NCBI RefSeq assembly: GCF_013299185.1
Contig: NZ_JAAFKG010000026.1
Span: forward strand, 1-64,000
Direction: 5' to 3'
Origin: Microcoleus sp. bin48.metabat.b7b8b9.023
Lineage (GTDB): Bacteria > Cyanobacteriota > Cyanobacteriia > Cyanobacteriales > Microcoleaceae
Length of the DNA stretch: 64,000 nucleotides
A model generated the notes under the pieces. The model did no database searches and was not told the DNA's origin. It saw only the letters and a list, made by a program, of their open reading frames with translations. Of the stretch, positions 33,473-47,572 are shown piece after piece (positions within the stretch are counted from its first letter, which is position 1; each line of letters begins with the position of its first letter). The position numbers and the translations under genes were made by a program.

Positions 33473-33621
33473 ATAATTGCTATCAGCAAAGCAAGGACTA
33501 AAGTCCTTACTACAAACCAAAGGTTCGTAGTGAGGACTTCAGTTTTTGTTTTGTCTCTGTCTCACTCTTCCTCTGTGTTCTCTGCGCTCTCTGTGGTTAA
33601 ATCATTCCGATCCAATCATAT
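33473..33621. repeat. Dispersed-repeat interval
   Basis: Contains GGACTAAAGTCCTTACTAC, the GTTCGTAGTGAGGACTTCAG copy and a TCTCTGTGGTTAAATCATTCC copy of families found elsewhere in the window. No gene. Confidence 0.75.
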
Positions 33622-34080
33622 CTAACTTTTAATACTTTCCAAAGTTTTGAGAGATTCCGAAACGTGCGCCTTAAAATCCAACATCGAGTCAAAAATATGC
33701 TTGACAATGCCTTGTTTGTCAATCACATAAGTGACTCTACCGGGCATAATCCACATAGTAGCTGGAACGCCGTATAATTGCCGAACTTTATTGCCTGTAT
33801 CGCTCAACAATGTGAAAGGTAATTGATATTTGGTGGCGAATTTCTCATGAGACTGCTGAGAATCATCGCTAATCCCAATTACTTCTGCACCTGCATCTTT
33901 GAAAACTTCATAACTATCACGAAAAGCGCAAGCTTCCGCAGTACATCCGGGCGTGTCATCTTTGGGGTAAAAGTAGACGATGACATTTTTTTTGCCTTTA
34001 AAATCCTTGAGACTGACTGATGAGCCAGTTTGAGATGATAAGCTAAAATCCGGTGCGATGTCTCCTACTTTGACAGTCAT
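33622..34080 (-). CDS. Peroxiredoxin Q/BCP
   Basis: This 152-aa protein has the PrxQ signature DDTPGCTAEAC with peroxidatic Cys46 and resolving Cys51 four residues apart, a PrxQ/BCP-type spacing. It reduces hydroperoxides using thioredoxin. It is the same strand as, and 33 bases beyond, the A2 gene end, but a functional link to that operon is not implied. Confidence 0.93.
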   Translation of the reverse strand: MTVKVGDIAPDFSLSSQTGSSVSLKDFKGKKNVIVYFYPKDDTPGCTAEACAFRDSYEVFKDAGAEVIGISDDSQQSHEKFATKYQLPFTLLSDTGNKVRQLYGVPATMWIMPGRVTYVIDKQGIVKHIFDSMLDFKAHVSESLKTLESIKS

Positions 34081-34113
34081 ATTTATTTAACTGAGTGTTT
34101 TGTTTATTGATTA

Positions 34114-37100
34114 TTATACAGTCTCAGTTACGCTTAATACTTCTCTTACCTTATTCAAAAAAGCCAGCGAATTAAAAGTAGCACTACCACCAGCGTGAGT
34201 GAATTCAGATAAAGCACCAACTGAATTATCGCCAATAATGCGATCGAACGGATCTAACTTGAGACTGATTTTTTGACGAGCTTCGTACCTAGAAAAGTGA
34301 AATATCGTCAAATAGTGTAGCAAAGTATCTTTAATTATACCATCATAAATCAAACCTTGACGAATATCTTCATCGTCTAGGATACCTTCATAAATATTCA
34401 ATAGCGTCGAATAGGAAATCACTCCATTATAAAAGTTCTTATCCCCTTGTTCAACTTTAATCCCATTAAATAAATTAAAAAACACAGCAGCTTGTTTCCT
34501 CCTATCCACAAACAACTCGGAAAGCTCCGCTGTATCTTGAATATAAAAAGATTCTCCTCGATGCTGTTTCGGACTATGTACATAATATTTATCAAAAAAT
34601 ACTGGATAAATCCTAACATCTTCCCGCTCTCCTTTCAAAACTCGGATGATATCTTTCGACATAAAAAATAACTTATCATCTCCATCATTTTGAGTAATAT
34701 GCAGCGTATTCGTATAAGGTGCTTGAGACATATATAGAAAATTTCGATAGCCTCGATTATATAACTGACTGACAATATCTGCCAGAATTAACGGCTGAGT
34801 ATAAAGACGCTGAAGGCTATAGTTTTCCGAGAAAGTTTTCAGCATTCCCACCTGAATAGTCTCATCTTCATAGCATCTAATTCCGGTGACTTCGCCAAAT
34901 AAACAGGCTTTTCTGCGATCGCGCCTACCGCCATTTTTCCCATCGCAATCCCTAGTGGATACTGTAATAATCGCTAAATTATCCAATTCTGGAGATAACT
35001 GTACATTGTTAAATCGAAACTTTTTAGGTAGGATTGAATACAGGGAGCTTAAGCCATTTTTAGCTGTCAAATGATACTTATCACCCAGAATGCGAAATCC
35101 TTGGGAATTGGCTCGATGTTTTTCGCTCAAAATGTGACATAATACTTTAGAAAAATGTCCGATAAACTTTTCCGAAGGGGAAGGATTTTCGTGGTAGCCT
35201 TCGTGAAGTCTTACCATCGGCACAAATAAATTATTGGGTAATTTTTGTAACAAGATTTTGAGAGCAATATATGACAGCAGTGAAATAGCAAATTTGTAAA
35301 CAAACGTTGCTTGTCTTTGCAAGCCTCCATTGCTGTCTAAACGTCGGTTATTGTAGGGAAAAACGACGGATTTATGCGGAAAGCTTTTATAAAAAACATC
35401 TCTAGAGCGATCGGCTTTAGGAACCCAAAACACTGGTAAAGCCTGGATACCTTTGATATTGTATTCCATGCTGAAACTTTGGGATTCATCATTTGGAAAA
35501 TAGCGAACATCTTCAATCTGAATATTGACTGGTAATTGACAAATTGCTCTCCGATCAATATTCGGTTTTTCCACAGAAATATACTGAAGTGTTTCCTTGG
35601 GATTGCGCCCCACAACCTCCTTGAAAAATTTTCCGGTTGTCAAGGTACGATCTATATTTTCAACTAGACCTTTTTTAATCAGAATCTGCCGCGATTCTGT
35701 GCGAGGTGATACAACAGTTTTATCTAAGATTGATTTTTGCAGCAATTGCTTGAGACAGTTGATTTTATAAGCGATGTTAAACTTCTCAAATCCTTGGATA
35801 AAATTCCGAAAAAGCTCTTTTTTGGCATCCTCATCAGAACCTTGCAATATGGAAACTACATTTTGCTCAAAGCCAGCGATCGGGTTATAATTAAGTTCAG
35901 AGTCAGTGTCGTAATTTGGCGCTAGTGGATTGCTGCGAGAGGCAAACACAAAATAGTACAAAAATGCTATTTTTAGTACCTTGCGGAAGAAGGTTTCATG
36001 ATTGGCTGGTTCCTCCAAGGCGGCGAGATGTTCCTGGCTGTTGGGATTTAACAAATTAAGATAGTAGTCGAATACGCGATCGCCTCCCCGCGATTGCACA
36101 GGATTCCCAAACTTGAGTTTAAGGCCAAAAATAAATTGCCGATCGCCCCCAGCATCATCCGTAGTTTCTCCCAGACTACCTGCTATAATCGGAACGATTG
36201 GTAAATAATCGAAAGCTTCCGATCGCGAAAACATATCTTTGTAATTAACCGGAGTTTTCTGATAGCTAACCAAGTAATCGCCATCAGCTTTATTGGTATC
36301 ACTGATATATCCTTCTATTAACCTCAAACGCCGAATTAAATCTTGGAGATAAATCAAACCGCGCCTATTTTCTGTAGTTGAATCAATATTTTCTAAAAGA
36401 TACTCCAAGTAAGTAATTTTCGCTTCTTTTTTCAGTTGTCCCAGAGTTTCCCGATCCACAACTCGCACCAGTCGGTGAAAATCAGAAGTTTCATTTTGCA
36501 CCATTTCATCAAGCAATAAATTAAGTTCTTCATTCTTATCTTTATTCTGAGTGTTTTCAGCAATATAACTCTTTAAACCTGCTTTCAACTCTTCTTGAAA
36601 AATATCTACATTTCGGATAGAAATAGTTACTTTATGAAACTTCAGCAGCGAATCAGAAGTAGAATCTAAGCATTCCAAACTCAATTTCTGTTTCTGCAAA
36701 TCTTTATACAAATTATCAAAGTCATACCTTAAACCTAACTGAGTCCCTTTACCTTTAAAAGACTCTAGCGGACTAATTAAACTAACTACAAATTGGTCAA
36801 TTGTAACACTATCTCCCAAAACAGATTGTAATTTTTGGCGCAAACAAGCCTCAATTTCCCTAACTTGACTCCGAAAGCGCACCTCAACTTCTGGTAAGAA
36901 ATTCACCGTAGCAGAATCTGCTTGATGTTCGCAATTACCCAAAGGATTTTGTACTTCTTTGCAAGTAGCGACTTGATTAGCAACTGTGTCAATATCTATT
37001 AGCAAACGTTGGCGATCGCCCGAAATGCTAAACGGGTTATTTCCCTGCAAAACTTCTAAAATTTTGTCCAGCAAATCGCCATAATCTACCGTGACTAAAT

Positions 37101-37128
37101 CGCTATCATCTAATCTTAAAACGTTCAC
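34114..37128 (-). CDS. Large protein A2 of a three-gene system, unknown function
   Basis: The 1004-aa protein starts at a GTG (MNVLRLDDSDLVTVDYGDLL) 17 bases after the helicase-like gene. It is a clear paralogue of the A1 product, sharing motifs along the whole length: SFSMEY, ALPV, the HRANSQG/HRSNSQG site, LD.LAI..VS.R, GE(V/I).G, LLKTFSE.Y, APY..TLH.TQ, LFFMSKD, YP.FFDKYY, YIQDT.EL and VFFNLFNG. No signal peptide or membrane segment is seen. I recognise no enzyme family. The C-terminal order of motifs invites comparison with a PIWI/RNase H-like layout, but this is a weak inference. Confidence 0.7.
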   Translation of the reverse strand: MNVLRLDDSDLVTVDYGDLLDKILEVLQGNNPFSISGDRQRLLIDIDTVANQVATCKEVQNPLGNCEHQADSATVNFLPEVEVRFRSQVREIEACLRQKLQSVLGDSVTIDQFVVSLISPLESFKGKGTQLGLRYDFDNLYKDLQKQKLSLECLDSTSDSLLKFHKVTISIRNVDIFQEELKAGLKSYIAENTQNKDKNEELNLLLDEMVQNETSDFHRLVRVVDRETLGQLKKEAKITYLEYLLENIDSTTENRRGLIYLQDLIRRLRLIEGYISDTNKADGDYLVSYQKTPVNYKDMFSRSEAFDYLPIVPIIAGSLGETTDDAGGDRQFIFGLKLKFGNPVQSRGGDRVFDYYLNLLNPNSQEHLAALEEPANHETFFRKVLKIAFLYYFVFASRSNPLAPNYDTDSELNYNPIAGFEQNVVSILQGSDEDAKKELFRNFIQGFEKFNIAYKINCLKQLLQKSILDKTVVSPRTESRQILIKKGLVENIDRTLTTGKFFKEVVGRNPKETLQYISVEKPNIDRRAICQLPVNIQIEDVRYFPNDESQSFSMEYNIKGIQALPVFWVPKADRSRDVFYKSFPHKSVVFPYNNRRLDSNGGLQRQATFVYKFAISLLSYIALKILLQKLPNNLFVPMVRLHEGYHENPSPSEKFIGHFSKVLCHILSEKHRANSQGFRILGDKYHLTAKNGLSSLYSILPKKFRFNNVQLSPELDNLAIITVSTRDCDGKNGGRRDRRKACLFGEVTGIRCYEDETIQVGMLKTFSENYSLQRLYTQPLILADIVSQLYNRGYRNFLYMSQAPYTNTLHITQNDGDDKLFFMSKDIIRVLKGEREDVRIYPVFFDKYYVHSPKQHRGESFYIQDTAELSELFVDRRKQAAVFFNLFNGIKVEQGDKNFYNGVISYSTLLNIYEGILDDEDIRQGLIYDGIIKDTLLHYLTIFHFSRYEARQKISLKLDPFDRIIGDNSVGALSEFTHAGGSATFNSLAFLNKVREVLSVTETV

Positions 37129-37145
37129 CCTGTCAACCCCCGATG

Positions 37146-40100
37146 TCAGATTTCCTTAGACAAAACCAAATTGAGTACATTCAACTCATTGGAACTCAAA
37201 AGATACTTATCAGTAAATATCTTTTCCCTAATCTGTTCTAAACTGTAGCTTCTAAACACAACAAACGGGAAATCTTGATATTTATCTCCGATCGGCAAAA
37301 CATTACCAACAGGATACAGCGCCTTAATATATTGAGTCAAGATATTTCTAAAATCTTGATATTTCTGTTCTTGGGGGTTGCTAGCAAAGTATTCCCTGAA
37401 TACTTCACCAGCAATAAATGCAAACAATGGCAACGCATAATACCGATCCTTGCGCTGGCTGCTTTGCTCAAATCGTTGTGTTTTCTCAACAGAGTTTGTC
37501 AATTCTTTTACTAACTCCATCGCATCTTTAATCGCAAATTGCAAACTCTCTGAATAAGCACTAGCATAACTAATTATCTGCATATTATGCCAAAGTTCAC
37601 TATTAGCATTTTTGGCTATTGTTGCCAGAGGCATAATGTAGGTTTCTTCCAAAGTTTGCGATGCGATCGGTACAACCAACAAACCGCCACTCATGTAGCC
37701 GAGTTCAAGGTTATCAAGGTTCAATAAATTCTCGAAACCTTCACTTACTAACTGGGAAAATCCATTGTTGAAAAAATCACGCTGCGAAAGGTATGAAGTA
37801 TGGGATTTACCACTAGACTCAACATTCTCTCTCAATGCAAAATCAGCTTGACCGAGTAAATCTTCTAGACTATTATAGACCTGTGGTAAACGCCGATCGC
37901 TCCTATTTTTCCTATGTTCGCTCTTCAACTTATCGATTAAGCTTTTCATTTGGGATGAGAATGTTTCACCAGCAGCAAACACAGACTTACCGCCGATGGG
38001 TATGATGATAAACTTATCTGAACCAATTTGCCCACAACCATAAATTCGCGTCATTATAGATGCTTTCAAAACCAACAGGATATTTAAAATACTCAGTTTA
38101 CTTTCCTGTATCGATATCTCTTTATTATCTTCAAAATACACTACCCGATCGCCTAAATAGAAAATCAGTTCTTTATCTTGATTATCAATCTCATCCTTTC
38201 CGCGCCCCCGATAAATTACCTGAATCAATTCCATCAGGTTTTTCTCTATTTCAAACCTCGGAATCTCAACCAAAATATGTTTAGCCTTGGGAAAAGATAG
38301 CCCCCGACTACCTGAAGCAGTCATAAATACTACTTTCGCATCTTCTTTGCATTTTTGAACTAACTCTTTTTCCTCCTCACCAATATTAGCGTGTATTTCT
38401 ATATAATCTGTCCCTTTTTCAAACTTACCCCGATGTTCTCTAATCTTGTCTATCAAATTACCCAGTTTTTGTTTATCTTGAATATAAACTATCACTTGTT
38501 CAACATCAGAGCGTTGTAACAGGGCTTCTATATCTTGTAAAATTTCGCTCTTGGTTAAATCAGTCTCTCGCCCTAGGAAATCATTTTCATCGAATTTACA
38601 AGATTCAATGAAAACCTTATATGTTATGCTTAAGCTTTTAGCAGGATAGGAGTTAGTATTGATAACAGTCGCGTCAGTTTCCTTAAACTTAAAATCCTCG
38701 ACTGACAGAGGTAAACCTGGATTTTTAGCTTTCCGAAAATAGATTTTATCCGGTTCAGCAGAGGTATCGCTTAAGTGTTGGCTAATTACAGCTTTATCAA
38801 CGATAGAAGCATCTGCAACAATTACCTTTGTATTAAACCCGTAAGCATTATTTTTCAATCCATAGGTGTTTAGGATGTCATTGATGCCGTTTAAGAATTC
38901 TACGCCTCCCTCGTCTCCCGTAATCTCATCGATCATGATAAATAAATGCTTGATGCGACTGGAGATGTCTTTCATGCGATCGGGAAAAACTTCACCATTC
39001 TTTGTGTTGTAAGCATTCCTGAAAATTTTCTCAAAATGTTTTAATGTATCGCCCGCATCAGTTTTCTTCAAAGATTGGATGGAAACAGTCGCAACAATGT
39101 TATTATAATCTTTAGTATCAATCAGGGTATAAATGGCTTCGCAAATGCTGTTTAGTACGCCCTTAGTATTCCGTCCACCATCTTGAATTACATTTTCTGT
39201 TTGCCTCTTGAGTCGGTCCGATCGCCTATTTTGACCCTTAGTTTCTCTGCTATCTTGAAAGTTAACAGTCTTTAATGAAAACTTTCCCTGCTTCTGATTC
39301 GAGAGATACTGGACAGTACATTTATGGCCGCTATCTTTAATTAAGTCACTATAGGTATTAATTGCGAATATTTTATTCTTGCATAAATTGTCAGTACCAG
39401 GTTTTTTGAACTTGTCGATAATATCTAGATTTACCTGTTTTCTGGGACTGACATAAAAGAATAGAAATCCATCGTTTACATGATCTGTCAGAAATTTGGC
39501 GATCGCAGTCGTTTTCCCAATACCAGGATTTCCCGTCAAAAAGATATAATTAGCAGCAGATTCTAGAGCTTTTTCAATCAGTTGAGCATGAGCATCCCGC
39601 AAACTAAAACTTCCGCTCAATCCCAACTGCTGCATCAATTCATCCGGCACAATTCCCACCGAGTTGACAAACCCCTCAAGTCGCTCTTTGTGAGGTACAA
39701 CATTGATTTTATCTGGCGACATTGCTAATATATCGTCAACAAATTTTTTGCCACGATCAAAGCTGTGGTAAGCACTCCGCTTGATTTTATTTAAAACTAA
39801 CTTGCGAGCATCCGCGATTTCTTTAGGACTCGAATCATACTTATAAATCGAGTAGCAAGTTTTCAAAACATCTAAATTTTCGGGACGGATAGACATAGTG
39901 CTAATTCCGCGATCGCTATATCCCACCGCATTAAATATTAATCGCGAATCCTCAGCAAGTATCTCCGTTTCTCGGAGAAATTCATAAAAACTATAAGCAT
40001 AACCGCCAGCTTGAATTAATTTAGCACTCTCCTTATCATCATACTTAAAAGCAGTAAAATAGCTCTTCAAACCTTCCGAAAATTCAACATCACAACTTTC

Positions 40101-40769
40101 CGTATCTATGCGAAGTTTAGAAAACACACTTTTTGAGCGCAAATAGTTAATATCTCGTCTCAACAAACGCCGAATAATCTCTAAATAATTCAGATTTGTC
40201 ACATCCTCAGATGTCCTAATCGAAAACACCGACAAATCTACAGACAGAATCCTAAATTGCTTACCACCATATCGCAGTAATATTAGAGTATCTGCTTTCA
40301 GAAACTCGCCTTTCTGTGTGTAACTTCCAATATACTGAGAAATATTTTTAATCTGGTCAAATTGAGATAAGACTTGTCTACACCACTGTGCTTCACCTTT
40401 AACGTAAGTACCAATACTACTCTCATCGCAAAAACAGGATTGGTAATACAAGATTTCCAAACGTCGTAGTTTACTTGTCTCATTCCAACCTGTAGATTCA
40501 AGGTATTCTCGAAAAAAGTTTAAGCCTGATAAAAAGCCTTTTTGTAGGAAAAATATACTCCACTTTTCAGCCATCTTTCTTTCCAGAGGACTGGTTATTT
40601 TATCAGTGATTTTTCTCAGCATCTTCGGAAACTCTAGCTGCTGCAATTCCTGGAGGTACAAGTTTCCAAACTTATGCTTAATTTGCTTCTCTTTGATACA
40701 AGCAAGAATGCCAATATTAAACCCAACTTCAAACAAACGCCCCAAATCTTCTGCTATTTTAGATTTCAT
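37146..40769 (-). CDS. Large SF2 helicase-like/ATPase protein of the three-gene system
   Basis: The 1207-aa protein begins with ~400 residues of unknown type. A P-loop IFLTGNPGIGKTTAIAKF follows at about 410-424, then a motif Ia-like YVSPRKQVN, a Walker B MIDEITGDEGG at about 612-622, and a region with VIVYIQDKQKL, FMTASGSRGLSFPKAKHI (motif V-like) and QVIYRGRGK (motif VI-like) up to about 858. The last 350 residues are again unknown. This is an SF2-like helicase or AAA-like motor. Its ATG overlaps the upstream A1 stop as ATGA. A stretch near residues 159-180 (KADTLILLRYGGKQ, ILSVDLS) is nuclease-fold reminiscent but lacks the usual final Lys. Confidence 0.75.
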   Translation of the reverse strand: MKSKIAEDLGRLFEVGFNIGILACIKEKQIKHKFGNLYLQELQQLEFPKMLRKITDKITSPLERKMAEKWSIFFLQKGFLSGLNFFREYLESTGWNETSKLRRLEILYYQSCFCDESSIGTYVKGEAQWCRQVLSQFDQIKNISQYIGSYTQKGEFLKADTLILLRYGGKQFRILSVDLSVFSIRTSEDVTNLNYLEIIRRLLRRDINYLRSKSVFSKLRIDTESCDVEFSEGLKSYFTAFKYDDKESAKLIQAGGYAYSFYEFLRETEILAEDSRLIFNAVGYSDRGISTMSIRPENLDVLKTCYSIYKYDSSPKEIADARKLVLNKIKRSAYHSFDRGKKFVDDILAMSPDKINVVPHKERLEGFVNSVGIVPDELMQQLGLSGSFSLRDAHAQLIEKALESAANYIFLTGNPGIGKTTAIAKFLTDHVNDGFLFFYVSPRKQVNLDIIDKFKKPGTDNLCKNKIFAINTYSDLIKDSGHKCTVQYLSNQKQGKFSLKTVNFQDSRETKGQNRRSDRLKRQTENVIQDGGRNTKGVLNSICEAIYTLIDTKDYNNIVATVSIQSLKKTDAGDTLKHFEKIFRNAYNTKNGEVFPDRMKDISSRIKHLFIMIDEITGDEGGVEFLNGINDILNTYGLKNNAYGFNTKVIVADASIVDKAVISQHLSDTSAEPDKIYFRKAKNPGLPLSVEDFKFKETDATVINTNSYPAKSLSITYKVFIESCKFDENDFLGRETDLTKSEILQDIEALLQRSDVEQVIVYIQDKQKLGNLIDKIREHRGKFEKGTDYIEIHANIGEEEKELVQKCKEDAKVVFMTASGSRGLSFPKAKHILVEIPRFEIEKNLMELIQVIYRGRGKDEIDNQDKELIFYLGDRVVYFEDNKEISIQESKLSILNILLVLKASIMTRIYGCGQIGSDKFIIIPIGGKSVFAAGETFSSQMKSLIDKLKSEHRKNRSDRRLPQVYNSLEDLLGQADFALRENVESSGKSHTSYLSQRDFFNNGFSQLVSEGFENLLNLDNLELGYMSGGLLVVPIASQTLEETYIMPLATIAKNANSELWHNMQIISYASAYSESLQFAIKDAMELVKELTNSVEKTQRFEQSSQRKDRYYALPLFAFIAGEVFREYFASNPQEQKYQDFRNILTQYIKALYPVGNVLPIGDKYQDFPFVVFRSYSLEQIREKIFTDKYLLSSNELNVLNLVLSKEI

Positions 40770-43700
40770 GACTGCGCGCCTCCTGTTGGTGCATTTAAAA
40801 CTTCTTTAACTTTAGTCAAAAACGCCAAGGCATTAAACTCTGCAACTCCTCCCATATGCTTATACAGAGATAGTTTTCCGACAGATTGATCTCCTATAAG
40901 GTTTTCGTAGGGGTCTAATTTAAAACTAATTTGAGTATTTTTACCAGTTGCTTTTTCGTAGCGAGAAAAGTGGAACAAGGTCAAATACTGCAAAATGTCA
41001 TTTTTTAATTGAGTATTAGAAATCAATCCTTGATGGATATGTTCATCATCCAGTATATCTTGATAAATATTTAACAAGGTGGCATAGGAAATTACACCCC
41101 TATAATTACGTTCTGCTTCTGAGCCGACTACCAAACCATTAAACAAATTAAAAAATACCACAGAGCGTTTGCTGGGGTCTTTGACTAAAGCGGTTAACTC
41201 CAATGTATCCTGAATGTATAAAGAATTTACTCCCAATCTTTCTGACAGTTTAACGGCATAGTATTTGTCAAAAAACATCGGGTAAATTTTGATGTCATTG
41301 TAGTTTTCTTTAAAATATTTAATCACATCTTTCGACATGAAAAATAAAGCATCTTCTTTTTGTGTCATGTGCAAGGTACTAGAATAGGGAGCTTTGGCAA
41401 TGTAGAGAAAGTGCCTGAATCCCAATTTGTAAACGTTCCCTATTTCATCTCGCACCACAGTCGGTTCTTTAAACATCTGTTCGTGTTCGTAGGTTTCCGA
41501 GAATGTTTTGAGCAATTGTAGCCTGACAGAGCCATCTTTTTGACGAATTGCACCGACAATTTCTCCTTGCAAATTCGATAGCTTTTGGTTGCTATTCCAC
41601 CTAGCATCACTCTCGCGACTGGAAACTATAACTATAGCGAGTTTGTCCAGTTCTTTTGGAGAATCTGACTGGTTGGAAAAAGTAAACTTTTTGGGTAGCA
41701 CAGAATACAGAGAACTCATTACATTGGGAGCTTTGTATTCTGTGTTTCTGATATCTATACCCTGAGAATTAGAGCGATGTTCTTCATTTAGTAAATGCGA
41801 TAACCTTTTAGATAAAGAACGCATGAACTCTTCTACGGGTGAATCTGACTGTTGATTGCTCAGTTGCAGCCGCAGGATGGGAATGAATAATCTACTCTGT
41901 TTTTCCAATAACAGTTTGAGGCAAGTATAGGCAAGTAAATCGAATGTAAACCGATACACAAAACTTTTTTTATTATCCCATTTGTTGCTAGCAAGACTGT
42001 AGGTGAATTCGACTAGCTTACGCTGTTGATAAAACCGATTATATATAGTTGTACACTGTTGCTCATTTGGTCTCAGCAACACTGGCAGAGCTTTTACACC
42101 TGTGACATCATACTCCATACTGAAGCTTTGCAGGTCGTCAGTGGCAAAATAATGAACATCACTAATTGCGATTTTAGCTGTGAGAGTACATAGGGAATTT
42201 TCAGTAGCCTTTGCTGGACTAATAGCTATATATTTTAATACTTCTTTGGGCTTGGTTCGTAGCTCAGTCTTAAAAAATGTAGAGGTTGTAGAAATATTAT
42301 TGATACTATTATCTAAAATGCTTTTTCTGACCGAAATGTGAAGCGGAAATTCTTTCAGTGAATGCTTGTGTTTCAGAATTTTTTGCAGAAGATTCTTGAG
42401 ACTGTCTATTTTAGAGGCAATATTATATTGTTCAAAACCTTTTTTGATTCCTCGCAAAAGTTTTTGCTTTGCTGCTTGATCAGAACCTTTGAATATTTTT
42501 AATACTTTTTCCTCAAAAACTGGAATTGGATCGTATTCTAAGTCTGAGTTAACTGTGTAACCATCTGACAAGGGATCTTTTGCGGCAAAAACGAAGTAGT
42601 ACAAAAAGACTAACTTCAATAACTTTCTAGCAAAAATTTCTTTTCTAGCAGGGTTATTAAGTTCGGCTTGATGTTCTTCATTTTCTGGATCGAGCAGATT
42701 GAGGTAATACTCAAAGACTGTTTTGCCACCATAGGCTTGCACTGGGTTATTAAACTTAAGCTTGAGTCCAAAAACAAACTGGATATCTCCTTTGTTTTCG
42801 TCTTTTGTTTCTCCTAAATATCCTTCTATTTTGGGAATAATTGGCAACATATCAAAGGCTTCAGCACGAGCAAAAGCATCTGCATAGTTCAAGTCAGTGT
42901 CGGCATAGTTGACTAAGTAATCGCCGTCGGTATTTTTGACTATATATTCATCAATCTGTTTGAGGCGCCGGATTAAGACTTTTAAATAAATTAGACCCTC
43001 GGCATTTGATGGGTTATTGCTGGTGCTAATGTTGTCTTCCAGAAATTCTAGATAACATATCTGTGCTTGTTTTTTGAGTTTGCCGATAGTTTCGGTATCT
43101 ACAAATTCTTTGAGTCTGTAGAAATCTGATTTAGGATCTTCTTCTAAATCTTGAAGAATGAAATCTAATTCGTCGCGATCGCTCTCACTAGCGCCAGCAA
43201 ACTGAGATTTGATATAATTTCCTAAGCCTTGTTTTAGCTCGGTGTTGAATGTCTTGGTATTTCCAACGGTGATAATTAGTTTGTGAAATTTTAGCAGTTC
43301 TTTGCTGCTAATATTTTTTGTGATACTCAAGCGCTGCTTTTGTAACCCTGAATAGTTACCAAAGGGATAGCTAAAGTCTAGCTTGGCATAGGTACTTTTA
43401 AAATCTTGTAAATCTGTAATTAAGTTATCAACAAATTGTTCGATCGCAATCTGTGGATTTTGTTGCTTAATTACGGATTCCAGTCGAGCTTTTAAACTAT
43501 TTTTGACTTTAGTAATTTGACTGGGAAAACGTTCTTTGAAGCCGGGAGTAAAGTTGACTGTAGCACGAACACCTGGTTCGGAAGAAGCACCTAAAGGATT
43601 TTCTACTCCCAAACCTGTGACTGCTTCGGCTATGCTGTCAATATCGATGATTAGCCGATCGCAATTACCGTGTATCTTAAAAGGATTCTGAGTCTGTGGC

Positions 43701-43786
43701 TTCTCTAAAACTTCGAGAATCTTGTCCAATAAGTCACTACAGTCAACCGCAACTAAATCCCCATCTGCCGTTCTTAGGGTATTCAT
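40766..43786 (-). CDS. Large protein A1 of a three-gene system, unknown function
   Basis: About 1006 aa from an ATG at 43786 that is preceded by GAGGAGG with good spacing. An in-frame GTG 18 bases upstream is less likely. It aligns with the A2 product from the first residues (MNTLRTADGDLVAVDCSDLLD against MNVLRLDDSDLV.VDYGDLLD) to the end. I see no known domain with confidence. The stop overlaps the helicase-like gene's ATG as ATGA, so the two are translationally coupled. The three genes together form a unit in the order A1, helicase-like, A2. Confidence 0.7.
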   Translation of the reverse strand: MNTLRTADGDLVAVDCSDLLDKILEVLEKPQTQNPFKIHGNCDRLIIDIDSIAEAVTGLGVENPLGASSEPGVRATVNFTPGFKERFPSQITKVKNSLKARLESVIKQQNPQIAIEQFVDNLITDLQDFKSTYAKLDFSYPFGNYSGLQKQRLSITKNISSKELLKFHKLIITVGNTKTFNTELKQGLGNYIKSQFAGASESDRDELDFILQDLEEDPKSDFYRLKEFVDTETIGKLKKQAQICYLEFLEDNISTSNNPSNAEGLIYLKVLIRRLKQIDEYIVKNTDGDYLVNYADTDLNYADAFARAEAFDMLPIIPKIEGYLGETKDENKGDIQFVFGLKLKFNNPVQAYGGKTVFEYYLNLLDPENEEHQAELNNPARKEIFARKLLKLVFLYYFVFAAKDPLSDGYTVNSDLEYDPIPVFEEKVLKIFKGSDQAAKQKLLRGIKKGFEQYNIASKIDSLKNLLQKILKHKHSLKEFPLHISVRKSILDNSINNISTTSTFFKTELRTKPKEVLKYIAISPAKATENSLCTLTAKIAISDVHYFATDDLQSFSMEYDVTGVKALPVLLRPNEQQCTTIYNRFYQQRKLVEFTYSLASNKWDNKKSFVYRFTFDLLAYTCLKLLLEKQSRLFIPILRLQLSNQQSDSPVEEFMRSLSKRLSHLLNEEHRSNSQGIDIRNTEYKAPNVMSSLYSVLPKKFTFSNQSDSPKELDKLAIVIVSSRESDARWNSNQKLSNLQGEIVGAIRQKDGSVRLQLLKTFSETYEHEQMFKEPTVVRDEIGNVYKLGFRHFLYIAKAPYSSTLHMTQKEDALFFMSKDVIKYFKENYNDIKIYPMFFDKYYAVKLSERLGVNSLYIQDTLELTALVKDPSKRSVVFFNLFNGLVVGSEAERNYRGVISYATLLNIYQDILDDEHIHQGLISNTQLKNDILQYLTLFHFSRYEKATGKNTQISFKLDPYENLIGDQSVGKLSLYKHMGGVAEFNALAFLTKVKEVLNAPTGGAQS

Positions 43787-43830
43787 TCTGCAACCTCCTC
43801 GCACCGCTTGACAACTTATGCAATTTGACC

Positions 43831-43859
43831 ATGGTAGCCGATATTGATTTATTAGTCAA
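43831..43859 (-). promoter_or_regulatory. Possible sigma70-type promoter for the three-gene operon
   Basis: Read on the minus strand, TTGACT (43859-43854) is followed 17 bases later by TACCAT (43836-43831). The -35 matches 5 of 6 and the -10 about 4 of 6. It lies about 45 bases upstream of the A1 ATG. A single such match is suggestive only. Confidence 0.35.
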
Positions 43860-43912
43860 GCGATTTGATTTCTATATTTACTTCCGAAATAATTCTTAAG
43901 TTTTATATCGGT

Positions 43913-44182
43913 TCAAAAAGCTTGAATCCACTCTTTAATATCGTATTCAGTCCAAACCCCATTTACCCAATAGGGATCGGTTTCCACCAATTGTCTCACA
44001 GTCGCCTCACTTTCTGCTTCGTAAATTGCAAAAACTTTGGTTAAATCTGTCGTTGGCCCGATCGCACTTAACACTCCCGATTCCTTCTGCTTAGCTAATC
44101 CGGCTAAATGAGCATCTCGAAATGGAGCACGTTTTTCGAGGACGTTTTCGCAGTAGCTTCCCCACATTACATATTTGGTCAC
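43913..44182 (-). CDS. YciI-family protein
   Basis: The 89-aa protein (GTG start) has YVMWGSYCENVLEKRAPFR, HLAGLAKQKESG and DPYWVNGVW, the dimeric alpha-beta-barrel YciI layout with an internal histidine. Family function is uncertain. It lies just upstream of A1 and in the same direction, but is separated by about 130 bases and is probably an independent gene. Confidence 0.85.
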   Translation of the reverse strand: MTKYVMWGSYCENVLEKRAPFRDAHLAGLAKQKESGVLSAIGPTTDLTKVFAIYEAESEATVRQLVETDPYWVNGVWTEYDIKEWIQAF

Positions 44183-44380
44183 GGTTTTGAGCCTTGGATG
44201 AATTTGTTTAAAATTTATTGTACAATAAGTGTAGCAGGATTTGATGATTTTTTTTAGGATAAGATTTTTTAACCGCAGAGACCGCAGAGGGCGCAGAGGA
44301 AGAGGGGAAAGAGAGGGGTTTGTTGGCTTGTCTGTAGGTTATAATACTAGGATATTACTAAATTCATAGAGGAGCAAGCT

Positions 44381-44955
44381 ATGACTTTATTAGACATTCG
44401 CCTGTTGACGGTTCAAGAATATCACCTAATGGCGGAAATTCGGATTCTTGATGAAGATGAACGAGTAGAATTGTTAGGAGGACAGATAGTTAATAAGGCT
44501 GTCAAAAGTCCACCACATTGTGCAGTATTGAAACGAACAGTAGAACTAATAAAAAAAAAATTTTGGGTTCTTTGGTATTAATCTGCCTCAATAATCCTGT
44601 TCGGTTAAATGATAACTCGGAACCGGAACCAGATCTTGCTCTGGTTGTACCAGATCCACTTTATTATGAAGAGTGTCATCCAACTCCGTCTGAAGTTTAT
44701 CTGATTATTGAGGTTGCGGATACTACGCTAAGAACTGATTTGGGGATAAAAGCGACAATTTACGCTCTGTCAGGAATTGCTGATTATTGGGTTTTGGATG
44801 TTCATAATCGCCAACTTCATGTATTTCGAGAACCGAGTCAAGATGGTTACCAAAGTATAGCAGTTCTTGGGGATGATGCGAGTATTTCTCCTTTGCAATT
44901 TCCTGATGTTTCATTTATGGTTCGGGATATGTTGCGGCCTTTAGTGACGAATTGA
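44381..44955 (+). pseudogene. Uma2-family endonuclease-like gene, frameshifted at an A10 run
   Basis: The first frame encodes MTLLDIRLLTVQEYHLMAE...ELIKKKFWVLWY, then stops. The second frame resumes just before and carries the rest: EPEPDLALVVPD, the LIIEVADTTLRTDLGIKA segment and DYWVLDV. Joined by a -1 shift inside the ten-A run at 44551-44560, the two give a full-length Uma2 (DUF820) PD-(D/E)XK protein. Asp, Glu and Lys are all present. It could be a pseudogene, a sequencing error in the homopolymer, or a slippage-expressed gene. Uma2 function is unknown. GAGGAG precedes the ATG. Confidence 0.8.
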
Positions 44956-45100: not shown

Positions 45101-47572
45101 TTAGCTTCTCAAACTAACGCCGAATTTCTCGACTAAAACATCGCGCACTTTTTGTTGTGCTGGTTCGACATCGGTTTCGCTCAAAGTTCGATCGCCCGAT
45201 CGATAAATCAACCGAAATGCTAAACTACGTTGTCCCGCCGGTACGTTTTCGCCGCGATACTCGTCGAAGAGTTCCACCGAATCGAGCAAACTACCCGCCG
45301 CCTGCTTCATCGCGCCCTGCATCTCAACCACCGGAACTTCCACGGGTGCGAAAAATGCGATGTCTCTGTCAGAAGCCGGGAAACTCGAATAACCTGCGAA
45401 TTTGCGAGTCGAGTTGTTCGATCGACCTAATTCATCCAACAACACTGCTAAATCTAATTGAAACACGTAAACCTGTTCCGGCAAATCCTTTTCTTGCTGC
45501 AATTGCGGGTGTAACTGTCCGAAAACTCCCAACCGCTTTTTTTCCCCCTTTTCTAAGGGGGGGTAGGGGGGGATCGATAGCGCGGCGGTGCGGCCCGGAT
45601 GCAGGCGCGGATTAGATGAATCGCTTGCATATTCTACAGCCAAACCCAACTGCTGAAATACACTTTCTAGGACACCTTTCGCTTCAAACCAAGTCAAAGG
45701 TCGATCGCGCCCACCTTGCTGCCATTTCCACACTGTCGGGTCGCCGCCAATAATCCCGGCTACGGCATCTGATTCTTTCTTGGCATCCCCTTCTTTCCAA
45801 AAAATGCGTCCGACTTCAAAACCGTTGAGCGCGCCGTTTCCTTGCTCCAAATTGTACTGGAAAGCATCGATCAAACCTGACAGCATTTCTGTCCGCAATG
45901 CCGAATACTCGACAAACAGCGGATTTGCTAGCACAACTTGATTATCTCCCTCGGTTTTTACTAAGGAATAGTGCATTAACTCTGTCAAGCCTGCTGCCCG
46001 AAAAGCCGATCGCACATTCCGCAATTGCGCGTATTCTGGAGATAGATAGCCTGGTTCTGTTTCGCTAGGCAAAGTATCGCAGAAATTGTCGTAACCGTGG
46101 AGTCTCGCGACTTCTTCGATTAAATCGATTTCCCTTTCTAAATCCCGGTAGCGGTAAGGCGGAACAGTTATCGCAAATACTCGTTCTTTTGCTGTCGCAG
46201 CCACTTCGCAGCCCAGGGCTGTGAGGATATTTTTTACTTCCTCCGGTTCCAGATAGGGAGAACCGCCGGTTGCTCCTCTTTTTAACTGTCCTAACACCAA
46301 GTTTATGCGATCGAGACGCAATTCGAGCGATCGCGAAAAACTCAAATCTCCCCCCGAACTCGCCGTTTTCTGCACCGTCGCATTCCCGCCAGCCAACTCC
46401 AAAATTAGGGCAATAGCGCGATCGCACGCCGTCGTTAAAGCTGCCTGATTCACACCCCGTTCGTAGCGGATCGATGCCTCGCTCCGCAGGCCTTGAGCGC
46501 GGGCAGAACGGCGAATTGTTGCTTGGTCAAAAATCGCTGCTTCTAAGACTAGATTTTCCGTGCCTTCGTGAACTTCCGTTGATTCGCCACCCATTACCCC
46601 AGCTAAGGCTACGGGTTTGTCGCTAGCAGTAATCAATAGATTTTGTGCTTGCAAATTGCGGTTTTGTCCGTCCAAGGTTTTGAAGGATTCGCCTGGTTTG
46701 GCAAAGCGCACGCCGATGCTGATGTCAGAAGTGCCGGTGAAAGATTGCAGGCGATCGCGATCGAAAGCGTGCAGCGGTTGTCCCCACTCCAGTAAAATGT
46801 AATTGGTTACATCAACCACATTACTAATCGGTCGCACTCCCGCCGCCTGCAATCGCTGCTGCAACCAAGCCGGAGACGGTGCAATTTTCACTCCTGAGAT
46901 TTCCGTGCCAATGTAAATCGGGCATCCTTGCGGTTCCGATATTTCTACTGCTAAATTGGGACTTTCTTCGCCATGAATCGCCACATCATTAGTTGTCGGA
47001 ATTCTCAAACTTGCGCCAGTTAATGCCGCCACTTCCCGGGCTACACCCACCATGCTTAAAGCATCTGCACGGTTCGCAGTTGCTGTCAAGTCTAGAATCA
47101 CATCATCTAAACCTAAAAGCGGGCGAATATCGCGACCCAATTCGGGATTTTCAAGTTCAAAAATATGAATTCCTGCTGATTCCTTCGACAATCCCAATTC
47201 GGCGAGAGAGCAAATCATTCCTTCCGAAGGAACGCCGCGCAATTTAGCAGGTTTAATTTTCAGATCTATCGTCGATAAAAAAGTACCGACAACGGCTACA
47301 GGTACATAAATATCTGCCCTCGCATTGGGTGCGCCGCACACAATATTTAAGGCTTCTGGTTTGCCGACATCAACTTGACAAACTCTCAATTTGTCAGCGT
47401 TGGGATGTTGTTCGCAGGCGACTATTTTGCCCAATACTACGCCGTCAGCCCATGCACGCCTGTCTTCGATTTCTTCGACTTCAAATCCTGCCATTGTCAG
47501 GGTTTCGGCTAATTCTTCCGGGGAACTCGTCACATCGACCAATTCCCGCAGCCAGTTTAGAGAAATACGCAT
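45101..47572 (-). CDS. pheT: Phenylalanyl-tRNA synthetase beta subunit with repeat-derived insert
   Basis: This 823-aa protein has the N-terminal tRNA-binding domain ([20 protein letters not shown]), the B3/B4 editing region, the B5 domain, the core region with [14 protein letters not shown], and the C-terminal FDX-ACB anticodon-binding domain ([17 protein letters not shown] to the end). It pairs with PheS to charge tRNA-Phe; PheS is not in the window. A tract [15 protein letters not shown] (about residue 675) is not part of the family and comes from a CCCCCTTTTCTAAGGGGG-type repeat that kept the frame. Confidence 0.95.

Follow-up and report, generated by a model that had tools for sequence, protein, structure and literature searches.

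A two-gene module that pairs a predicted Argonaute-like protein with an SF2 helicase in cyanobacteria and on proteobacterial plasmids

The closest described systems to the one reported here are DdmDE, the plasmid elimination system of Vibrio cholerae, made of the prokaryotic Argonaute (pAgo) DdmE and the helicase-nuclease DdmD, and ApsAB, an antiplasmid system of Escherichia coli. The subject of this work is a module of two genes, A (~1000 amino acids, aa) followed by H (~1200 aa), which occurs in an extended form, A1-H-A2, in the cyanobacterium Microcoleus sp. bin48.metabat.b7b8b9.023. The window, i.e. the whole stretch of DNA that was analysed, comprises positions 1 to 64,000 of contig NZ_JAAFKG010000026.1, and the operon was examined at 34114..43786. 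The best reading, drawn by analogy, is that A-H would work like DdmDE or ApsAB but with a different architecture.

In DdmD the helicase is N-terminal and the PD-(D/E)XK nuclease C-terminal, and a WYL-domain gene is located near ddmDE (PMC12409362). Another paper that treats DdmDE swaps the names of its two proteins (PMC12904381). ApsA contains the helicase motifs DELH, SAT and QAVGRVER and a C-terminal nuclease with D...DVK, whereas its partner ApsB has the QG-containing MID motif Y[X]3K[X]nQG[X]nK and reportedly does not retain the PIWI RNase H fold; some cyanobacteria are reported to carry ApsAB-like systems (PMC11096173). The pPIWI-RE triad consists of a restriction endonuclease (REase), a DinG helicase and pPIWI-RE (PMC3702460). 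Proteins with helicase and PD-(D/E)XK motifs that are linked to pAgos have been described as og_6, og_34 and og_37 (PMC6299218).

The operon of the window is composed of three consecutive open reading frames (ORFs) on the minus strand. The genes and their start signals are as follows:
40766..43786, minus strand: A1, predicted Argonaute-like protein of the lineage located upstream of its own H, 1006 aa
37146..40769, minus strand: H, superfamily 2 (SF2) helicase of 1207 aa whose N-terminal domain is PD-(D/E)XK-like
34114..37128, minus strand: A2, second predicted Argonaute-like protein, of the other A lineage, 1004 aa, GTG start
43794..43799, minus strand: AGGAGG, Shine-Dalgarno-like stretch of A1, which supports the ATG at 43786
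40779..40784, minus strand: AGGAGG, Shine-Dalgarno-like stretch of H, lying within A1

A1 and H overlap by ATGA at 40766-40769, the gap between H and A2 is 17 bases, and a GGGGG stretch precedes the A2 start. The length of A1 is counted from the ATG; an in-frame GTG further upstream would give 1012 aa. This anatomy (three minus-strand genes, their sizes, the overlap and the gap) had been described in an earlier sequence-only reading of the window and was borne out, as was the end-to-end likeness of A1 and A2, which are 47% identical over 1018 alignment columns. The reality of the genes and the linkage of A to H are near certain. The ratio of nonsynonymous to synonymous substitution rates (dN/dS), calculated against the close relatives L002 and L011, is 0.13-0.21 for each of A1, H and A2, so that all three genes look maintained by purifying selection. 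The GC content of the block is 37.2%, compared to 47.4% in the window outside 33501-44500. A-H is AT-richer than its own flanks in all 10 other loci measured, and AT-richness is thus a trait of the genes rather than a sign of recent arrival; the sequence-only reading had counted it as part of the look of a defence or mobile-element conflict system.

The conserved unit is the two-gene module A-H, not A-H-A. In 26 of the 32 loci (L002-L033) that were retrieved with A1 from named cyanobacterial genomes, A is directly followed by H on the same strand; two of these 26 have a fragment of H only and one has H in two pieces. The contig ends less than 600 bases behind A in three loci (L006, L013 and L019), and three more deviate: H is upstream of A in L003, an H fragment lies 9 kb off in L026, and L027 has no H. 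The A1-H-A2 layout is found in three of the 32 (L002, L004 and L011), so the earlier description of a duplicated large subunit around a motor does not hold for the family. Clustering of the neighbours showed no third gene common to A-H loci. The linkage is not absolute, because A and H are ~360 kb apart in G170 and ~7 kb apart in G117. Distant H proteins, ~25-32% identical, are encoded in cyanobacteria, on two Acinetobacter plasmids and on one plasmid each of Cupriavidus and Acetobacter. They have an A homologue immediately upstream, and iterated profiles place A and H next to each other in 22 of the 24 loci L063-L086, including four proteobacterial plasmids; the exceptions are L078, which begins at a contig edge, and L082, which is decayed. 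Profile-profile comparison relates the core and distant A with a probability of 99.8%. The sets of 48 H and 56 A used below include near-copies (L083 and L086 repeat L024 and L007, and L069 and L070 are 98% identical). Of 291 genomes of the order to which the window belongs, 122 gave an H and 109 an A, with at most two candidates scored per genome and fragments counted. Public annotation calls the pair a hypothetical protein and a helicase-related protein.

Sequence searches with A returned no family. A1 and A2 have no match at E <= 0.001 in Pfam, NCBIfam or PADLOC, and the same is true of 34 core and 13 distant A in Pfam, of the 13 distant A in NCBIfam and of A among PDB sequences. Three weak matches were set aside: Pfam Penicillinase_R (5 of 13 distant members, best E-value 0.005), NCBIfam ZorA2 (1 of 13 distant members, 0.0018) and Pfam POL3_N (4 of 34 core members, 0.012). 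The predicted structure of A1 makes A very probably a member of the PIWI superfamily. The best 50 rows of the PDB search with this structure contain 46 that name an Argonaute, PIWI, SPARDA or SPARTA protein, and MID-PIWI chains among the matches listed align to residues ~551-996. The corresponding regions are:
40802..42130, minus strand: MID-PIWI-like half of A1, residues ~553-995 with QG at 675-676, from the predicted fold and structure matches
34150..35481, minus strand: MID-PIWI-like half of A2, placed by alignment to A1

It is quite improbable that A is not PIWI-like, the match being due to the RNase H fold alone or to chance, and that A-H is some other kind of helicase-adaptor system. The absence of sequence support for PIWI agrees with such an explanation, and so does the hhalign comparison with five pPIWI-RE proteins, eight cyanobacterial pAgos and five DinG-sized neighbours of pPIWI-RE, which gave probabilities of 0.0-5.9% and no link of A to pPIWI-RE or the pAgos; the comparison is insensitive and its negative carries no weight, since pPIWI-RE and pAgo, which are held to be related, scored 0.1% against each other. 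The structure matches speak for the PIWI assignment: almost all of them are Argonautes, whereas foamy-virus reverse transcriptases take only ranks 43 and 49 of the best 50.

The QG pair is kept in 55 of the 56 A proteins (Q675 in 42/43 core and 13/13 distant members, G676 in 56/56), at a site that by eye looks like the guide-anchoring glutamine of MID. The other positions of the MID motif described for ApsB are, in the core family, Y620 (41/43), K or R at 624 (24/43) and K699 (41/43), compared to 11/13, 3/13 and 0/13 in the distant family. Placement by eye puts S, A or T and K or H at the expected positions of the catalytic aspartates, and the PIWI domain has probably lost its catalytic residues. 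Several acidic residues of the core family are nearly invariant (D727 43/43, E742 43/43, D840 42/43 and D860 43/43), but the distant family does not conserve E742 and D860.

The fold is also consistent with a role that involves no guide, in which A would have the scaffold of a PIWI protein but recognise DNA or RNA ends, hybrids or branched DNA, and H would be the effector. Med13 keeps a PIWI module in another role, and the Mediator kinase-module entry 7kpv is among the structure matches of A1. Furthermore, the large N-terminal half of A (~550 residues) gave no assigned fold, and the MID pocket of the distant family is non-canonical. The near-universal QG at the apparent anchoring site argues the other way, and a non-guided scaffold is considered improbable.

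The motifs of H are distributed over two regions:
37998..39626, minus strand: SF2 helicase core of H, residues ~382-924, with GxGKT 416-420, DE 614-615, T817 and QxxYRGR 850-856
39870..40601, minus strand: PD-(D/E)XK-like domain of H, residues ~57-300, with G154, D160, D/E178-x-S/T180, K246, K250 and Q253xxxY257

Family searches match H to Helicase_C and P-loop models, in keeping with the earlier description of large unassigned proteins with a dedicated SF2 motor. H, whose motifs include DEITG, MTASGSRG and QVIYRGRG, is an SF2 helicase that is not DinG-like. A four-cysteine set like that of DinG is not conserved among the 48 H proteins: between Walker A and B each column has Cys in at most 30/48, and 6/48 have no Cys there at all. 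PADLOC candidates for H, namely Avs1b (9e-4), type IV DinG (0.002) and MkoA (0.009), cover P-loop or helicase motifs and were set aside, and 13 distant H gave no PADLOC match at E <= 0.1. Searches of PDB sequences at limits of 0.1-10 gave RNA-helicase motifs and chance-like matches only.

The N-terminus of H has the predicted order alpha-beta-beta-beta-alpha-beta, as expected for PD-(D/E)XK. D160, D/E178 and Q253xxxY257 are present in 48/48 H. The usual K of (D/E)-x-K is replaced by S (45/48) or T (3/48), and there are two invariant lysines on the helix before Q253. These motifs, together with the modelled topology, make it likely that the domain is PD-(D/E)XK-like and of the RecB-like kind. 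A low-confidence model shows a largely helical structure for the C-terminal 250 residues. In an Acetobacter persici plasmid (L066:6066-10174) H is split into two overlapping ORFs, the second of which is the C-terminal part, suggesting that this part is a separable domain.

The sequence-only reading had recognised no named system, and none emerged from Pfam and NCBIfam (A1, A2, H and distant A) or from PADLOC (A1, A2, H and distant H). No paper describing the A-H pair was identified from titles and the beginnings of abstracts, a weak negative because subscription papers and preprints were mostly outside the coverage. Like A-H, DdmDE has two genes, for an Argonaute-like protein (in A, by predicted fold) and an SF2 helicase with a nuclease-type domain, and a WYL gene is found both near ddmDE and near one distant A-H locus, that of A. 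piscicola. However, the nuclease-like domain of H is N-terminal and has D/E-x-S, whereas the nuclease of DdmD is described as C-terminal. No match to DdmD or DdmE was obtained in PDB, NCBIfam or PADLOC, libraries whose content of these proteins is not confirmed, and the absence of DdmD from the best 50 structure rows for H excludes nothing. ApsAB likewise combines an Argonaute-like partner with a helicase-nuclease, and QG is present in both ApsB and A. The helicase motifs of H differ from those published for ApsA, its nuclease-like motifs are N-terminal rather than C-terminal, and the PIWI RNase H fold, reportedly not conserved in ApsB, is predicted for A. An ApsAB-like system is the likeliest way in which A-H could prove to be already known, and it is the published description of ApsAB that sets the two apart.

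The pPIWI-RE systems also have a PIWI-superfamily protein of ~1000 aa with its own helicase, and both kinds are found in cyanobacteria. They differ in that A-H loci have no conserved separate nuclease gene in their order and H has no conserved four-cysteine set. With the limit set at E = 1, no pPIWI-RE model was among the Pfam families listed for the 34 core or the 13 distant A. Of 194 genomes of the phylum, 6 gave PF13032, and that of the window was not one of them; at the control loci L093, L094, L095 and L097 a pPIWI-RE match goes with the published REase-DinG-pPIWI-RE layout, judged solely from the size and order of the ORFs. Long and short pAgos (PF02171 and relatives; SPARTA and SPARDA) share the MID-PIWI fold that is predicted in A. 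Unlike them, A has no Piwi match in Pfam, its catalytic aspartates are not at the expected places by eye, and its constant partner is a large helicase. By the features compared, A-H does not appear to be a member of DdmDE, ApsAB or pPIWI-RE, because the helicase has its nuclease-like domain at the opposite end, the gene order is not that of pPIWI-RE, and DinG features and a pPIWI-RE model match are lacking; the relationship is a working analogy only.

The proposed function of A-H is that of a two-protein nucleic-acid interference module. A, as a divergent and probably inactive PIWI/Argonaute protein, would bind a short guide, recognise foreign DNA or RNA by pairing and recruit H. H would then unwind and cut the target, most likely plasmid or other invading DNA, using its SF2 helicase and RecB-like nuclease domain. 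A2 may share H with A1, as an alternative subunit for guide binding or regulation. Interference with foreign DNA that depends on a guide is proposed tentatively, at slightly less than an even chance. It is more doubtful whether A-H constitutes an unnamed class of Argonaute-like immune modules, with a dead PIWI sensor and a helicase bearing an N-terminal lysine-shifted RecB nuclease, to which a second A of a helicase-less lineage has been added in some species to give two specificities and one effector.

The position of the module in the genus is defined by two genes, which we take from their sequences to be bcp and pheT:
33622..34080, minus strand: bcp-like peroxiredoxin gene, which borders the genus's module site on the left
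45101..47572, minus strand: pheT, which borders the same site on the right

Both flanks are on one contig in 21 of the 29 genus genomes searched and on different contigs in the other eight, and the site holds the module in all 21. In 17 of them A and H are of the other type, with H 54-57% identical to that of the window; three have A1-H1-A2 (the window, G219 and G434) and one has A1-H1 (G033). The H1-type copies are 81-90% identical to the window's, and full-length pheT 87-96%. The identities of pheT and H do not track each other (96% and 57% in G001, 87% and 90% in G219), which shows a turnover of two module versions at one fixed site, through either exchange or differential loss from a tandem. 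Such a tandem is seen in L004 (= G424), where the start of an H2 lies behind A1-H1-A2. This H2 shares 64-86% identity with the H of A2-type modules, so two modules have been joined there. A short ORF on the plus strand between A1 and pheT (window:44518-44955) resembles by eye a fragment of a Uma2-type protein. Between A2 and bcp of G219 (L127:12646-18130) there are trypsin-like, Hsp90-like ATPase and linked ORFs with the look of a conflict-type cassette, and between H2 and bcp of G260 (L124:923-4293) a metal ABC transporter permease, ATPase and substrate-binding protein, all named by eye.

In a tree of the last 490 residues of A (63 rows), A1 of the window groups with A1-type proteins. A2 falls into a different clade of 22 rows, to which the A proteins of sister species with a single A-H operon also belong, and a recent in-place duplication of A1 is thus ruled out. 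In sister species the lineage of A2 is found in its own A-H operon or without H. The nearest members of the A2 sublineage have no H of their own; L002 (= G219) and L011 (= G434) match the layout of the window, and L027 (= G425), in the same sublineage, has no H. The A2 of L004 belongs to another subclade, and no remnant of a second H was found behind A2 of the window. No H was found in the genomes G425, G426 and G430, estimated to be 86, 84 and 99% complete, which have A2-type genes (assigned by clade for G425 and by best match for G426 and G430). G425 holds a second A fragment as well. The A2-type genes of G430 (1039 aa, L117:7839-10958) and G426 (1023 aa, L121:10084-13155) are open, adjoin bcp and have a dN/dS of 0.26 between them.

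The chromosomal setting was examined in 16 neighbourhoods, from genomes picked for long contigs and not at random, with stretches 0.5-1 Mb from A-H as controls. Oversize ORFs were dropped at random, and PADLOC families at E <= 1e-10 were counted, not ORFs with a match. The flanks gave 112 families from 148/160 ORFs and the controls 188 from 138/164, these fractions being the ORFs scored in each run. The first 25 families of the flank list are led by SspA/DndA, matches that we read as cysteine desulphurases (three members have Pfam Aminotran_5). The idea that chromosomal copies lie in defence islands is unsupported on this sample. At a second site, five genomes of one family (L136, L137, L138, L144 and L150) have common neighbours, presumably of the Band_7, Fur or NfeD type, and three more pairs of loci share neighbours, one of them weakly (L145/L149, 36-42% identity).

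Such results weigh against interference and favour a housekeeping role, in which A-H would serve chromosome replication, decatenation, the removal of R-loops or repair in polyploid cells of filamentous cyanobacteria without any part in the response to invaders. The 16 neighbourhoods look housekeeping and show no excess of defence models, the pheT-bcp site is fixed, neighbours are shared at the second site, and all three genes are under purifying selection. Allelic exchange at pheT-bcp is not proven, since the L004 tandem permits differential loss. Residence at a fixed site is mixed evidence, fitting a resident immune gene as well as a housekeeping one. A role of TtAgo in completing replication, and help from two cyanobacterial pAgos in E. 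coli cell division under topoisomerase inhibitors, are reported in PMC10269773. Housekeeping is nevertheless judged unlikely, because 182 of the order's 291 genomes gave no A, at least nine genomes have a broken or truncated H, two versions turn over at one site, and copies occur on plasmids of both Proteobacteria and cyanobacteria. The six plasmid records with A, some of them near-copies, are all conjugative by PLSDB typing. The conflict role suggested by the sequence-only reading is therefore plausible on the basis of fold, plasmid copies, turnover and broken copies, and not on its original arguments from AT-richness and neighbourhood. Phage or prophage cargo is unsupported: a scan with two patterns for each protein found no A or H relatives in viral contigs, and neither core nor distant H matched any of 50,697 phage records.

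If the proposed function is correct, A-H would be a further coupling of an Argonaute to a helicase-nuclease beside DdmDE, ApsAB and pPIWI-RE, present in over a third of the genomes sampled from a cyanobacterial order of ecological importance, with scattered occurrences in Proteobacteria. It could then help to explain transformation barriers and plasmid upkeep in filamentous cyanobacteria, and the A1-H-A2 operons would be a natural case of two sensors with one effector.

Some plasmid-borne and distant copies have neighbours of other kinds. The copy on Nostoc pNPM2 is ~10 kb from genes for a cGAS-like nucleotidyltransferase and an E2-type protein, and A-H of A. piscicola is followed by HNH and WYL genes, two settings that speak for a conflict role. 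Related large ATPase-like ORFs lie beside the distant A-H pairs of L072 (L072:13540-15969) and L077 (L077:6755-8998), and clustering shows theirs to be the only neighbour family common to the two. In plasmid C of Trichormus variabilis (L068:15680-26455), ORFs of 831, 1853 and 905 aa adjoin A-H, before a DNA cytosine methyltransferase; the 905-aa ORF is annotated as a DEAD/DEAH helicase, and the three ORFs are possibly another defence set.

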